32,323 nt of DNA, taken from NCBI GenBank assembly GCA_026390655.1, contig JAPLFN010000104.1, positions 61,843 through 94,165 of the forward strand, in the 5' to 3' direction. The notes under the pieces are model-generated. The model ran no database searches. It saw only the letters and a list, made by a program, of their open reading frames with translations, and was not told where the DNA came from. Position 1 is the stretch's first letter, and every line of letters starts with the position of its first letter. This DNA is from Candidatus Kapaibacterium sp. GTDB taxonomy: Bacteria; Bacteroidota; Ignavibacteria; Kapaibacteriales; Kapaibacteriaceae. The position numbers and the translations under genes are program-made. Below, piece after piece: positions 14,277 to 28,614 of the stretch.

Positions 14277-14366
14277 ACCCAGGGCGTCAGTTTCACGCGT
14301 TAAACCCAGGGCGTCAGTTTCACGCGTTAAACCCAGGGCGTCAGTTTCACGCGTTAAACCCAGGGC
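14273..14366. repeat. 27-bp tandem repeat, three full copies plus a 13-bp partial
   Basis: Units at 14273-14299, 14300-14326 and 14327-14353 are identical. Each starts TTAAACCCAGGGC and ends TTTCACGCG. A fourth, partial unit (14354-14366) runs into a hairpin. The first unit contains the TAA stop of the second peroxidase gene. Units abut without spacers, so this is not a CRISPR array. Confidence 0.95.
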
Positions 14367-14379
14367 TGAAGCCCTGGGT
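14358..14379. other. Perfect hairpin closing the tandem repeat (possible transcription end or interspersed palindrome)
   Basis: The inverted repeat is ACCCAGGGC (14358-14366), loop TGAA, GCCCTGGGT (14371-14379), a 9-bp perfect stem. It sits after the peroxidase operon and 31 bp before the serine hydrolase ATG. There is no T-run after it, so it does not look like a classical intrinsic terminator. The tandem units appear to be iterated copies of the left arm. Confidence 0.8.
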
Positions 14380-14409: not shown

Positions 14410-15681
14410 ATGCGGATCATACTGGTACTTTTTCTTGTGGTGTTGGTGAGCCCCCTCACAGCACAGAACCTCTACTTTCCTCCAATCACTGGCGCGGAAT
14501 GGCAGCGCATGGACCCGAGTGAGCTGAATTGGTGCGCGGATCGAATTGACTCACTGGTACGTTACACAGGTGAGACCCATGCCAAGGCGTTGATCATCCT
14601 CAAGGATGGGAAAATCGTGCTTGAGAAGTATTACGACACCTTCACGCAGGATAGCGTCTGGTACTGGGCTTCGGCTGGTAAAACAGTTACGTCCGTTCTT
14701 GTAGGACAGGCACAAGAGCGTGGTCTCGTCGATATCACCAAGTCGAGTAAGACATACCTCGGTGCCGGTTGGAGCTCATGTACGCCTGCGCAGGAAGATG
14801 CGATCACTGTTCGTCATCACCTTACGATGACCACGGGGCTAGAGGGGCGTGTAGCAGATGACAACTGCAAAGACCCATCCTGTCTCACATATAAGGCGGC
14901 ACCAGGAACACTATGGGATTACTACAACGCCGGCTATCTGCTCTTACAGGATGTTGTGGCAAAGGCATCCGGTCTTAGTTATCAGCAGTACTATGCGCGC
15001 AATCTCGCCACTCGTACCGGTATGGGTGGCCTTTGGATTGATGGTGTCCTCTACTCCAAGCCTCGTGCAATGGCTCGCTTTGGTTTACTGCTCCTAGCAG
15101 GGGGCGTATGGAACGGTGATACCATCCTGCACGACCAAGAGTATCTCCATGCAATGAAGAACACTTCCCAAGATCTCAACAAATCGTATGGCTATCTCTT
15201 CTGGCTCAATGGAAAAGGTAGCTACATGCAACCGGGCGTACCATTTGTCTACAACACAGACCTTATTCCTGCTGCACCGGATGATCTGTATTCTGGCCTC
15301 GGTAAGAACGACCAGAAGGTATACGTTGTACCAAGTCAGGGTCTTGTTGTTGTTCGTATGGGCGACAAAGCAAAGGATGCCGTCCTCGCTGTAAGCGGAT
15401 TCGACAACGAACTATGGCAATACATCTCCGCACTTCAGTGTAGCACAACAGCAGTGCATGAAGAACGCACGGAGAATAGCGCTCCGTCAATCTGGCCCAA
15501 TCCCGCGAGTGACGTTCTCCATCATGATGGAGAAGAGTTTGTCATTCGTTCCGTGGATGGACGAGTAGTTGCAAGGGGCTTCTCGGCGACCATTGATGTC
15601 AATTGGCTTGCTTCGGGATCGTACATCATAGAGTCAACACGTGGTATTGTCACGCGCCGATCCATTCTTCTAAAGCAGTGA
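14410..15681 (+). CDS. Secreted serine hydrolase (beta-lactamase/PBP4 family) with T9SS sorting domain
   Basis: A 423-residue exported enzyme of the class C beta-lactamase-related superfamily. It has a signal peptide MRIILVLFLVVLVSPLTAQ, the catalytic SxxK motif as SAGK (S88, K91), a YxN motif in DYYNAGY (Y171, N173), and LTMTTGLEG at the usual position between them. The C-terminal 80 residues are a T9SS type A domain (SIWPNPASDVLHHDGEE ... GSYIIESTRGIVTRRSILL). Relatives are peptidases, esterases or beta-lactamase-like enzymes acting outside the cell; activity cannot be told. The start ATG has GGGAG 7 nt upstream. The next gene, a VanX-type D,D-dipeptidase, begins 13 bp after it, which fits a joint role on peptidoglycan peptides or exogenous D-amino acid peptides. 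Confidence 0.9.
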   Translation: MRIILVLFLVVLVSPLTAQNLYFPPITGAEWQRMDPSELNWCADRIDSLVRYTGETHAKALIILKDGKIVLEKYYDTFTQDSVWYWASAGKTVTSVLVGQAQERGLVDITKSSKTYLGAGWSSCTPAQEDAITVRHHLTMTTGLEGRVADDNCKDPSCLTYKAAPGTLWDYYNAGYLLLQDVVAKASGLSYQQYYARNLATRTGMGGLWIDGVLYSKPRAMARFGLLLLAGGVWNGDTILHDQEYLHAMKNTSQDLNKSYGYLFWLNGKGSYMQPGVPFVYNTDLIPAAPDDLYSGLGKNDQKVYVVPSQGLVVVRMGDKAKDAVLAVSGFDNELWQYISALQCSTTAVHEERTENSAPSIWPNPASDVLHHDGEEFVIRSVDGRVVARGFSATIDVNWLASGSYIIESTRGIVTRRSILLKQ

Positions 15682-17137: not shown

Positions 17138-17206
17138 CGCAATAGCATGCTATCGCGAGACCTGCCGTAACCCTGTAACCCCGTAACGCGATAGCATGCT
17201 ATCGCG
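17138..17206. repeat. Two copies of a 20-bp palindrome between convergent genes
   Basis: Copy 2 (17187-17206), CGCGATAGCATGCTATCGCG, is a perfect 20-bp palindrome. Copy 1 (17138-17157) differs by a single A (CGCAATAGCATGCTATCGCG). They are separated by 29 bp and fill the 105-bp gap between the DUF2279 and arsM stop codons. Possible roles are a bidirectional transcription end, a protein-binding site or a small interspersed repeat family. There is no T-run. Confidence 0.9.
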
Positions 17207-23799: not shown

Positions 23800-23908
23800 T
23801 GTCCAAATAAATGTCCAGGATACTGTCCAATCGGCCGTCCTAAACAGATGTTAACTTATGTATAGCAATTAGTTACGTTTAGCATTATATTGTCCGTATG
23901 AGTGTCCA
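23800..23908 (+). promoter_or_regulatory. Iterated TGTCC repeats over the Fic promoter and start codon (candidate operator)
   Basis: TGTCCA starts at 23800, 23812 and 23824, exactly 12 bp apart, and a degenerate CGTCCT follows at 23836 in the same register. A second pair, TGTCCG (23891) and TGTCCA (23903), is again 12 bp apart and flanks the Fic ATG at 23898. TGTTCC follows at 23914. The second pair overlaps the -7 box and the predicted transcription start, a position suited to repression. Confidence 0.5.
23886..23892 (+). promoter_or_regulatory. -7-like box abutting the Fic gene start
   Basis: TATATTG (TAnnTTG) ends 5 nt before the ATG at 23898 and overlaps the TGTCCG operator-like repeat at 23891. 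Confidence 0.4.
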
Positions 23909-25106
23909 GATAGTGTTCCCAACTCCGTTTTTTCCAGAAGATGGTTCGATCAATCCACTTCTAGAAAAAGCCTCCGATGTGATCGTCAAGTCGCATGGTT
24001 TAGCCGGCATTGTTCCCGCAGGGGTAAGAGAGCCACTGGCATTGCTTCTGCGAGCGATGAATTCGTACTACACGAACAGGATAGAGGGTCAGCACACTAC
24101 GCCATACGATATTGAGCGTGCAATGAAGAGCGACTATTCGGGCGACAAGAGAATAGCACAACTTCAGCGTTTGGCCATTTCTCATATGGATGTAGAGCGC
24201 ATGCTTGAGGAGGAGAGTAGGGGGCTTGCGATCTCGGATCTTTATACCCCAAGCATTGTCCAGAACATCCACCGTGTACTCTACAATAGGCTCGAACCTG
24301 AAGACAGAGTAACAACAGACGGCGCTCACATTGAACCTGGAGCCTACAGGGACGTCACTGTTTACGTCGGCATTCATGTATCACCCGATCCTCAAGAGAT
24401 CGCGGATCAGCTCAATCGGTGGTCTGAGTCGTACAGGCAACAGAGTGGTTCCGAGCGGTCACTGATTGCAGCTCTTTGCTCTCACCACAGATTGGCGTGG
24501 ATCCATCCATTTCGTGATGGGAATGGTCGTGTTGCTCGACTGCACATGCATTCTCTTCTTCACACGCTTGGCCTCACGAATGGACTCTGGACGCCTGTCA
24601 GAGGCTTTGCCCGGGACGTCCGGCAGTATTATGCCAGACTTGCGAGCGCAGATGAGCCGCGAATGAATGATCTTGATGGCCGTGGCAATCTTTCTCAGAA
24701 GGGGCTCGTTCAATGGGCGAGCTATGTGCTCGACACGTGCCTAGATCAAATAGCCTTCATCGATCGGCTGCTCCAGTTAGCCAGCCTTCGTGATAACCTT
24801 GGTCTGCTTCTACGATCACTCGAAGCACGACCTTGGCAGATGGGATCCGAACGGTCTGTGATTCGGCTCGATGCACTCGAGCCACTTTTGTACTCCATAT
24901 ATACCGGTGAAGTTGAACGAGCTCGCTTTATCAGCATGATCGGACTTCCAACACGAACGTCACGTCGGATCTTGGCTTCGCTCCTAGATTACGGCCTTCT
25001 AACTGCAAACACCCAGAGGGGTCCGGTACGCTTCGCACTTCCATTTTCCGCTCTCAGTATTCTATTCCCTCGACTGTGGCCCGAGGCTGATTTTGGAGAT
25101 AACTGA
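23898..25106 (+). CDS. Fic family AMP-transferase with N-terminal autoinhibitory helix and C-terminal winged helix
   Basis: A 402-residue cytosolic Fic protein. The catalytic motif HPFRDGNGRVAR (res 203-214) is a perfect HxFx(D/E)GNGRxxR, so AMPylation (or de-AMPylation) of a target hydroxyl using ATP is expected. The inhibitory motif (S/T)xxxE(G/N) occurs upstream as TNRIEG (T59-G64), placing it in class II, where the Glu blocks ATP binding until released. The flap YVGIHVSPDP and the N-terminal Fic_N-like region are present. The last 80 residues (LEPLLYSIYTGEVERARFIS ... TSRRILASLLDYGLL) look like a winged-helix domain, a common arrangement in Fic proteins that may bind DNA. No antitoxin gene is adjacent. 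Operator-like repeats overlap the promoter and ATG, consistent with autoregulation. It converges on the pyruvate-kinase-like gene with 2 bp between them. Confidence 0.93.
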   Translation: MSVQIVFPTPFFPEDGSINPLLEKASDVIVKSHGLAGIVPAGVREPLALLLRAMNSYYTNRIEGQHTTPYDIERAMKSDYSGDKRIAQLQRLAISHMDVERMLEEESRGLAISDLYTPSIVQNIHRVLYNRLEPEDRVTTDGAHIEPGAYRDVTVYVGIHVSPDPQEIADQLNRWSESYRQQSGSERSLIAALCSHHRLAWIHPFRDGNGRVARLHMHSLLHTLGLTNGLWTPVRGFARDVRQYYARLASADEPRMNDLDGRGNLSQKGLVQWASYVLDTCLDQIAFIDRLLQLASLRDNLGLLLRSLEARPWQMGSERSVIRLDALEPLLYSIYTGEVERARFISMIGLPTRTSRRILASLLDYGLLTANTQRGPVRFALPFSALSILFPRLWPEADFGDN

Positions 25107-27248: not shown

Positions 27249-28430
27249 TTAGAGATTCATGATGTCTGATAACGGTAGCGACAAGAAGGACTCGTTGGAG
27301 ATTCCATCTGTGCCGACCCTGATTGCCCGGGAATGCGGGTGCTTTTTCCGGAGGGCATCTATACCTCGCCATCCATGCCGAGTACCCGTTGATACTTCGA
27401 TGGCAAGACACGTCCGATGATCGTGAATCACAAAGTCAACCTCATCATTTCCATCCCTCCACCACGAAAGTTTGAAGAACGTGCCATCGGTGAGATTCCG
27501 AAGGTGCGTTCCTACCAGACTTTCATAACACCGTCCAAAATCGTCTGAGTTCATAGACGGACTCCATGGAGCGCCACAAGCCGTACTGATACCATTAGCG
27601 AACACCTGCAGTTTAGGGCTTGTTCTGCGAGTGATAACAGAGGTCGAGAATTTTGACAGTCCGCACAACACTCCAGCTTCTTCCAAAATGTCGAGATAGT
27701 GCACAACAGTGCTCGTATTACCCGCATCATGCAGAACGCCGAGAAGTTTGGTGTATGATACTTCCCTTGAAGACATCGTTGCTCCAACGAGCATGAGTTC
27801 CCGAAGTAGGGCGGGTTTGTCTATTCGATACAGTTGCAGAACATCTTTAAGAATCACAGGTTCAATGACGCTATCCATCATATAGGACCTCCATCGTTCT
27901 CGATCATCGATATATGGAACTGAGCCCGGATAGCCACCATAGATCGCAAACGTTTCGAGATTCCAATTGAATGCTGTTTTCATTTCCGAGAACGACCATG
28001 TGGGTACGCGGATACGTTCAAAGCGTCCGGCGAGCGACTCACGGAGCCCCTTATTCAGCAAAACCGTTGATGATCCAAGAACGATCACCCTAACATCTAC
28101 ATTATTCCATGTATCGGCATCCCATTCGCGCTTGACCGCTTCGCTCCATTCCGCTACTTTTTGAATCTCATCGATAACGAGAACAGCCGTTCCTCCTGCT
28201 GCCGTTCTACGAGCACCAGCCCAAACATCAGCAATCCAGCCATCGGCGCTTCGCGCTAGGCCATCTGCATTTTCGTAGATCACCGGCACTTGCGTGCCTT
28301 CTAGCGCTTGTCGCACTAAGGTGGTCTTCCCTACTTGTCGAGGTCCAGTTACGGCAATAATCGTAAATCGAGGCTCAGCGAGCCGTTTTCTGATCTCCGC
28401 AACATATTGGCGTTCATACACTTCGGTCAC
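27249..28430 (-). CDS. AAA ATPase with DUF4143 domain
   Basis: A 393-residue protein of the AAA_14/DUF4143 family. The Walker A motif is GPRQVGKTT (res 29-37), Walker B is VLVIDEIQK (D87, E88), and a sensor-like VRVIVLGSST follows. Then come the GGYPGSVPYIDD segment (the conserved GGxP of the family), a winged-helix-like region (SSREVSYTKLLGVLHDAGNTSTVVHYLDILEEAG) and the DUF4143 nuclease-like end (DEVDFVIHDHRTCLAIEVS). The D-E-V-D-F...A-I-E-V-S pattern resembles PD-(D/E)xK nucleases. Members are numerous in mobile or accessory gene sets and their function is poorly known. The start is GTG 28430 with AAG just before it; a short open frame ends 4 nt upstream. A tandem dyad lies directly upstream. 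Confidence 0.9.
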   Translation of the reverse strand: MTEVYERQYVAEIRKRLAEPRFTIIAVTGPRQVGKTTLVRQALEGTQVPVIYENADGLARSADGWIADVWAGARRTAAGGTAVLVIDEIQKVAEWSEAVKREWDADTWNNVDVRVIVLGSSTVLLNKGLRESLAGRFERIRVPTWSFSEMKTAFNWNLETFAIYGGYPGSVPYIDDRERWRSYMMDSVIEPVILKDVLQLYRIDKPALLRELMLVGATMSSREVSYTKLLGVLHDAGNTSTVVHYLDILEEAGVLCGLSKFSTSVITRRTSPKLQVFANGISTACGAPWSPSMNSDDFGRCYESLVGTHLRNLTDGTFFKLSWWRDGNDEVDFVIHDHRTCLAIEVSTGTRHGWRGIDALRKKHPHSRAIRVGTDGISNESFLSLPLSDIMNL

Positions 28431-28434
28431 CTTA

Positions 28435-28614
28435 TCAACATTTACGCAGTATACTGCCCAAATTTACGCAGCATTCTGCGTAATTCCATTTCTTTACCAA
28501 ATGATAGGTGAATCTTACGTTCATATCATCCGGACCATCATGCGCCATTTTGAGCAGGAGTTGGCGCCTTCGGCGTAACGTTTCTATCTTCTCCGGTATA
28601 TAATCCTTGGTCAA
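28435..28614 (-). CDS. Possible small ORF upstream of the DUF4143 ATPase
   Basis: From TTG 28614 to TGA 28435-28437 the minus strand encodes 59 residues. The first part is charged and helix-like (YIPEKIETLRRRRQLLLKMA, followed by HDGPDDMNVRF); the last 20 residues simply translate the tandem dyad. The stop lies 4 nt before the ATPase GTG, an arrangement that would allow coupled translation. There is no ATG at the start and no ribosome site, so it may be a gene remnant or chance. I recognise no family. Confidence 0.25.
   Translation of the reverse strand: MTKDYIPEKIETLRRRRQLLLKMAHDGPDDMNVRFTYHLVKKWNYAECCVNLGSILRKC
28440..28483. promoter_or_regulatory. Tandem dyad upstream of the DUF4143 ATPase gene (candidate operator)
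   Basis: ATTTACGCAG occurs at 28440-28449 and 28462-28471, 22 bp apart (two helical turns). The second copy forms a perfect dyad TTACGCAG-CATT-CTGCGTAA (28464-28483). The first forms TTACGCAG-TATA-CTGC, with the inner 12 bp GCAGTATACTGC (28446-28457) fully palindromic. The array ends about 10 bp before the GTG start of the ATPase, where a bound repressor would block transcription or translation. Confidence 0.6.

Follow-up and report, generated by a model that had tools for sequence, protein, structure and literature searches.

Tandem dyads before a DUF4143 ATPase gene, a probable private operator in a clade of PDC-S01 defence candidates

The ATPase gene and the dyads before it

The window (the whole stretch of 32,323 nucleotides that was analysed, from Candidatus Kapaibacterium sp.) encodes an AAA_14-DUF4143 ATPase, and two tandem dyads lie just before the start of its gene. 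The features considered here are as follows:

27249..28430, reverse strand: AAA_14-DUF4143 ATPase gene, 393 aa, matching PADLOC PDC-S01 (Pfam, PADLOC and AlphaFold, mean pLDDT 93.9)
28323..28346, reverse strand: Walker A motif GPRQVGKT, residues 29-36 (sequence)
27603..27815, reverse strand: predicted winged helix-turn-helix, residues 206-276 (AlphaFold secondary structure)
27390..27392, reverse strand: residue 347, Ser, in the EVDF...IEVK motif of the nuclease-like domain (alignment)
28464..28483, reverse strand: upstream dyad, without mismatch, reading TTACGCAGAATGCTGCGTAA along the gene strand
28442..28461, reverse strand: downstream dyad, with 2 mismatches, reading TTGGGCAGTATACTGCGTAA along the gene strand; its centre is 22 bp from that of the upstream dyad
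28461..28466, reverse strand: -10-like TAAATT between the dyads, at the same position as the -10-like box in relatives (sequence)

The protein matches both PF13173 (84.2 bits, cut-off 27) and PF13635 (60.3 bits, cut-off 28.1), as do all 78 of the 78 aligned members at E <=0.001. It also matches PADLOC model PDLC04791 (PDC-S01, a single-gene phage-defence candidate) over its full length, residues 5-390 aligning to positions 2-393 of 395 with an E-value of 3.2e-139. NCBIfam held no useful family for this ATPase, and a profile search of PDB sequences returned no clear relative. Walker A residues G29, R31, Q32, G34 and K35 are invariant across the 78-row alignment. The AlphaFold model, built with 78 aligned relatives, has three parts: the ATPase domain, the winged helix and, at the C-terminus, a domain that bears an EVDF...IEV motif. 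In our reading of the secondary structure of the model, residues 206-276 form a predicted winged helix-turn-helix, with a putative recognition helix at 239-251 and wing strands at 255-258 and 273-276. Residue 347, which we take to be the position of the catalytic Lys at the E-x-K end of the PD-(D/E)XK motif, is Ser in the window protein and in its relative L039, and Lys in 55 of the 58 relatives with TGAGTA-type sites. A Fic/DOC-family gene lies near the ATPase gene (window 23898-25106).

The first-pass annotation had placed two dyads directly before this gene, and they are indeed there, at 28442-28461 and 28464-28483, with centres 22 bp apart and 22-bp units identical at 18 of 22 positions. 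The upstream dyad, TTACGCAG-CATT-CTGCGTAA, has two 8-bp arms without mismatch; the downstream dyad, TTACGCAGTATACTGCCCAA, has a perfect 12-bp core (GCAGTATACTGC) and 2 mismatches against the pattern of the first. The GTG start at 28430 lies 11 bp beyond the nearer dyad, and an alternative in-frame GTG at 28421 is possible. Allowing up to 3 mismatches, the dyad pattern matches twice in the window, and two matches per sequence were found in none of 100 dinucleotide shuffles. Perfect 8-4-8 dyads of any sequence number 4 in the window (0.5 expected); a single dyad therefore means little, and the signal is the tandem repeat at the gene start. The remaining three such dyads (14359-14378, 15515-15534 and 17187-17206) have unrelated sequences. 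Across the 2.63 Mb source genome, the exact dyad occurs once and three sites differ from it at 2 positions, one being the second dyad of the window and two lying elsewhere; at up to 3 mismatches the whole genome holds 11 sites, no excess over the reversed control (15).

The -10-like hexamer between the dyads is part of TAAATTTG (28459-28466), which presumably also matches the Bacteroidota TAnnTTTG form; the -35 match in the window is poor (3 of 6, by eye). We defined a -35-like hexamer as at least 4 of 6 matches located 16-18 bp before a TAAAAT/TAAATT-like box. Among relatives outside Bacteroidota/Ignavibacteria, 16 of 28 loci have such a hexamer ahead of the -10 between the dyads, versus 11 of 167 shifted offsets; the Bacteroidota/Ignavibacteria loci gave no signal (3/11 versus 6/66 shifted offsets). 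A form seen in Bacteroidales, for example in locus L044, is TTTG-N19-TAAATTTG, which we take to agree with the Bacteroidota promoter consensus. Outside Bacteroidota/Ignavibacteria, the position of the site speaks for a promoter operator.

The tandem site across the ATPase family

To place the dyads in the family, relatives were collected from a species-genome collection that was searched with an alignment of six relatives; at least 511 were found and the best 80 loci, which span many phyla, were kept. Of these, 74 were anchored by script and 6 were not located; two loci (L088 and L104) were mis-anchored, scored as misses in the half-site count and dropped later. Four early loci (L038, L140, L146 and L147) were not located and another, L027, is perhaps mis-anchored; L031 and L039 share an identical upstream region and probably represent one genome, and L303 repeats L073. 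Near-identical upstream regions were kept in the half-site, lag and promoter-box counts and removed in the shuffle-based test for palindromes and repeats.

Of the 74 loci (from the best 80 of at least 511 relatives), 51 carry two or more exact TACTCA/TGAGTA half-sites in the 134 bp upstream, compared to 5 of 2914 control windows; 6 further loci have one exact half-site and 17 have none. Of those with none, two are anchored on the wrong ORF and most others carry variant repeats by eye, for example 22-bp direct repeats of TTGAGAATTTT. Half-sites in the same orientation form 58 pairs at 22 bp, the next most frequent distance being 44 bp with 4 pairs, and the lag-22 excess reaches z=30 in 72 clade loci drawn from the same best 80 of at least 511. 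With dinucleotide shuffles as the reference, a significant palindrome or 20-24-bp direct repeat precedes 67 of 80 clade genes versus 9 of 158 control windows. The window dyads are one case of this clade-wide arrangement.

The alignment of upstream regions that the first-pass annotation had proposed thus yields a tandem site with a 22-bp period that is common to the clade in many phyla, mostly as TACTCA/TGAGTA. The absence from other DUF4143 upstream regions that it named as a refutation applies only to the literal TTACGCAG, which is rare, and not to this class of site, which is widespread: the literal dyad was found in 1 of 11 genomes of the genus and 1 of 395 of the phylum, in both cases the source genome. 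The nearest relative (L031/L039, Ignavibacteria, 60% identity) has two TACGCAG-type dyads, also 22 bp apart, in flanking DNA that is unalignable. Because the window protein and L039 (TGCGTA type) are sisters on the protein tree and the next row, L040, has TGAGTA-type sites, the TTACGCAG of the window most likely derives from TTACTCA, and the half-site of this lineage would have changed from TACTCA/TGAGTA to TACGCA/TGCGTA. A 44-base idealised site returned 4 records at E 0.8 from annotated phages and 5 records from plasmids, one of them convincing (Bacteroides finegoldii NZ_OY725913.1). On that plasmid, the site lies directly before an ‘ATP-binding protein’ gene.

We then compared the site with the protein phylogeny, using a tree built without the winged-helix columns and site-type labels assigned by eye. 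The eight site types require 8 changes on this tree (shuffled mean 19.3, 0/200 as low) and the 15 host-phylum groups require 20 (shuffled mean 32.7, 0/200 as low); site type thus appears to follow the protein tree more tightly than host phylum does, as if site and protein travel together, with host phylum itself clustered on the tree, which partly confounds site type with descent. Residues 226, 239 and 269 are among the positions that show fixed differences from one site type to another. Covariation between residues and half-site bases was not established with only 3 independent pairs, which are too few, and it is therefore not used as evidence.

Beyond the clade, the source genome has five DUF4143 genes and the genus has 27 matches in 8 of 11 genomes; by eye, most of these genes have some repeat before the start, with differing sequences. 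Among 101 non-clade genes, that is, the located DUF4143 genes after removal of clade members, 58 have a significant palindrome or 20-24-bp direct repeat versus 14 of 201 controls from the same loci (dinucleotide shuffles). Palindromes alone account for 58/101 versus 13/201, direct repeats of 20-24 bp for only 19/101 versus 12/201, and within the genus 15 of 19 scorable genes outside the clade of the window have one or the other. A later batch of 86 loci included 20 that were not located and 40 stretches picked by hand, mostly from genomes with many copies. Outside the clade, lag 22 does not lead (z=4.7 versus 6.3 for lag 32 and 6.2 for lag 19), so a 22-bp period characterises the clade and is not family-wide; a few other genes also show it by eye. 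The paralogues of one genome (G032) have visibly different palindromes (by eye), and one of them, L351, has a palindrome of ~50 bp (ACTGAATTAACGTAAATTGCGTCAGTTAACTGACGC...) upstream of its ATPase gene. The non-clade count does not alter how probable we consider either self-repression or a link to phages (both below), since both readings rest on the clade.

What may bind the site

Exact dyads of the form TTACTCA-N6-TGAGTAA occur in 18 of 25 genomes selected for carrying the gene, at 27 sites (1 for the reversed pattern). All except one of these (26/27) precede the ATPase gene, and 79-144 bp separate the end of the nearer site from the Walker codon; the 27th (L293:1501-1520, genome G402) precedes a gene for a 350-aa HNH endonuclease in a genome that also has the ATPase. 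In 61 unselected genomes of the phylum we found 12 exact dyads versus 2 for the reversed control, comprising 4 before intact genes, 2 before broken genes, 3 tandem sites with no relative of the clade found nearby and 3 single or partial sites. At L400 and L395 the ATPase gene behind the operator is broken: 72 residues from its N-terminal part are left at L400 and 72 from its C-terminal part at L395. No ATPase of the clade was found near the tandem sites at L396, L399 and L403; at L403, a sigma-factor-like gene (by eye) follows the tandem site after ~260 bp. None of the flanking genes is conserved, the largest cluster among 310 flanking frames covering 4 loci. The site thus appears largely private to the ATPase gene in the gene-selected genomes, with a more mixed picture in the unselected set.

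The anatomy, conservation and position of the site, its near-privacy to the gene and its co-inheritance with the protein are what these comparisons establish. The first-pass annotation had seen in the dyads a likely cooperative operator and a possible DNA target of the protein itself, and both descriptions fit the comparative data, since a tandem site lies at the promoter with its units two helical turns apart and travels with the gene. The dyads are probably a private operator through which the ATPase, by means of its winged helix, represses its own promoter; binding, repression and cooperativity are the parts that we infer. The protein combines an AAA+ ATPase, a winged helix and a C-terminal domain resembling nucleases; two dimers of it, or some larger oligomer, would occupy the tandem site from a single side of the double helix (22 bp being about two turns). 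The bound ATPase would cover the core promoter, with its -10 box between the dyads, and so repress its own gene. Gene and operator would move jointly as a one-gene cassette, the half-site changing together with the protein.

Alternatively, a separate host transcription factor could bind the dyads, and the ATPase gene would be one member of its regulon. Helix-turn-helix regulators classically bind dyads at promoters, and some genomes have solo tandem sites elsewhere in addition to the site before the HNH gene. We nevertheless consider this unlikely: the 26 of 27 exact dyads before the ATPase gene in the 25 selected genomes argue against a wider regulon, even with the solo sites of the unselected set, no regulator is conserved as a neighbour, and the same site recurs across many phyla, yet DUF4143 paralogues of a single genome differ upstream. 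The idea that the dyad might be a clue to the regulator or stress controlling these genes is not supported, the site being nearly private to the gene in the gene-selected genomes.

Improbable, too, is that the site is a target for recombination or insertion that spreads the gene, with solo sites as empty or vacated places. The solo tandem sites and the sites beside broken copies in chromosomes, the many sites in viral contigs (see below) and a weak similarity to TniB in 13 of the 78 aligned members would suit such a mechanism; against it, the sites are on the 5' side in 17 of 18 loci of the gene-selected genomes with no flanking pair seen, the site overlaps a promoter-like box, and there is no recurrent transposase partner, an integrase-like cluster (by eye) being present in 4 loci only. 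Very improbable is that the repeats act as RNA, in a hairpin or attenuator of the 5' leader, because although some dyads are near enough to the start to be transcribed, several relatives have direct rather than inverted 22-bp repeats (Prevotella-like types; L022, L024 and L030), the clade has its same-orientation half-site pairs at 22 bp, and a -10-like box lies inside the element.

Self-repression of this kind by the ATPase would resemble AbiEi of the AbiE type IV toxin-antitoxin system, a winged-helix protein that represses its own promoter via inverted repeats and has TAAAAT as -10 (PMC3985639). The likeness lies in a winged-helix protein of a defence system acting on its own promoter, and for the window ATPase negative autoregulation would be the most likely mechanism. 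AbiEi differs in belonging to a two-gene operon, in combining its winged helix-turn-helix with an uncharacterised C-terminal domain and no ATPase, and in its repeats, two 11-bp arms with 27 bp between them as opposed to the 22-bp tandem dyads of the window family (PMC3985639).

Structural comparison with VIA-align gave two archaeal ATPases as top matches to the AAA and winged-helix parts: 2qen (PAB2304, Z 16.4) and 2fna (Sso1545, Z 16.2), at 3.4-3.5 A over 257-258 residues, in a search where many AAA proteins score 13-15. The alignment to 2qen covers residues 1-287 only, and the C-terminal nuclease-like domain is outside it; the sequence match to 2fna is insignificant (E 0.29). The top Foldseek E-value (1.3e-8) belongs to the archaeal Orc1/Cdc6 initiator 2qby, but with a TM-score of only 0.32-0.34. 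We take 2qby to be an AAA+ protein plus winged helix on origin DNA, and its entry title names origin DNA; an initiator-type role for the ATPase would be a resemblance by analogy.

Viral contigs and the defence context

PDC-S01 has been described as the fourth most common defence across prokaryotes, with an ATPase joined to a protein of the PD-(D/E)XK superfamily, and most such defence candidates still await validation (PMC12988326). Unlike this description, the window copy is without the nuclease-motif Lys. The available portion of that article mentions no operator or DNA site, with zero occurrences of ‘palindrom’ and ‘inverted repeat’ (PMC12988326), and no description of these sites was present among the matches listed from the open-access literature.

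The pattern TGAGTA-N4-TACTCA-N6-TGAGTA is present in at least 120 IMG/VR contigs, many of them related to each other (reversed pattern 0; N8 version 9). When 83 viral loci were clustered by single linkage, 8 groups resulted, and the one with 71 loci is probably over-merged. A relative of the clade was not found by tblastn in the stretches, as distinct from whole contigs, of 86 viral loci. A terminase gene lies within 900 bp of 26 of 80 viral sites (loci L149 and L157-L235), 14 of the 26 being near both the small and the large subunit, and these come chiefly from one phage family. The tandem pattern of the window type has 0 matches in viral contigs. The Prevotella-like 22-bp direct repeat is found in 4 of them, L295, L297 and L298 included (control 0); one of the four has a copy of the ATPase gene and is perhaps host DNA. 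On a 116-kb viral contig (L298:5846-5878), this direct repeat stands directly before a start codon. Simple promoters were dropped as an explanation of the viral sites, which differ in how they are oriented and in how far they lie from genes.

The same site in viral contigs would give the family a direct molecular link to phages. We tentatively propose, as a possibility that we hold to be rather doubtful, that this link is functional and that PDC-S01 ATPases and phages are locked together via the private operator of the ATPase. If true, the operators in phages could serve as decoys that sequester the ATPase, as targets at which the host ATPase represses phage genes, or as a sequence by which it recognises phage DNA; the host operator would then double as a sensor, triggered once the copies in phages titrate the repressor.

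Genes for DUF4143 ATPases abound in prokaryotes and are uncharacterised, and the present clade now figures among the defence candidates as PDC-S01. With an operator specific to the gene, the DNA ligand of the family would be predictable from sequence, and there may be a reason why one genome can hold many insulated copies.
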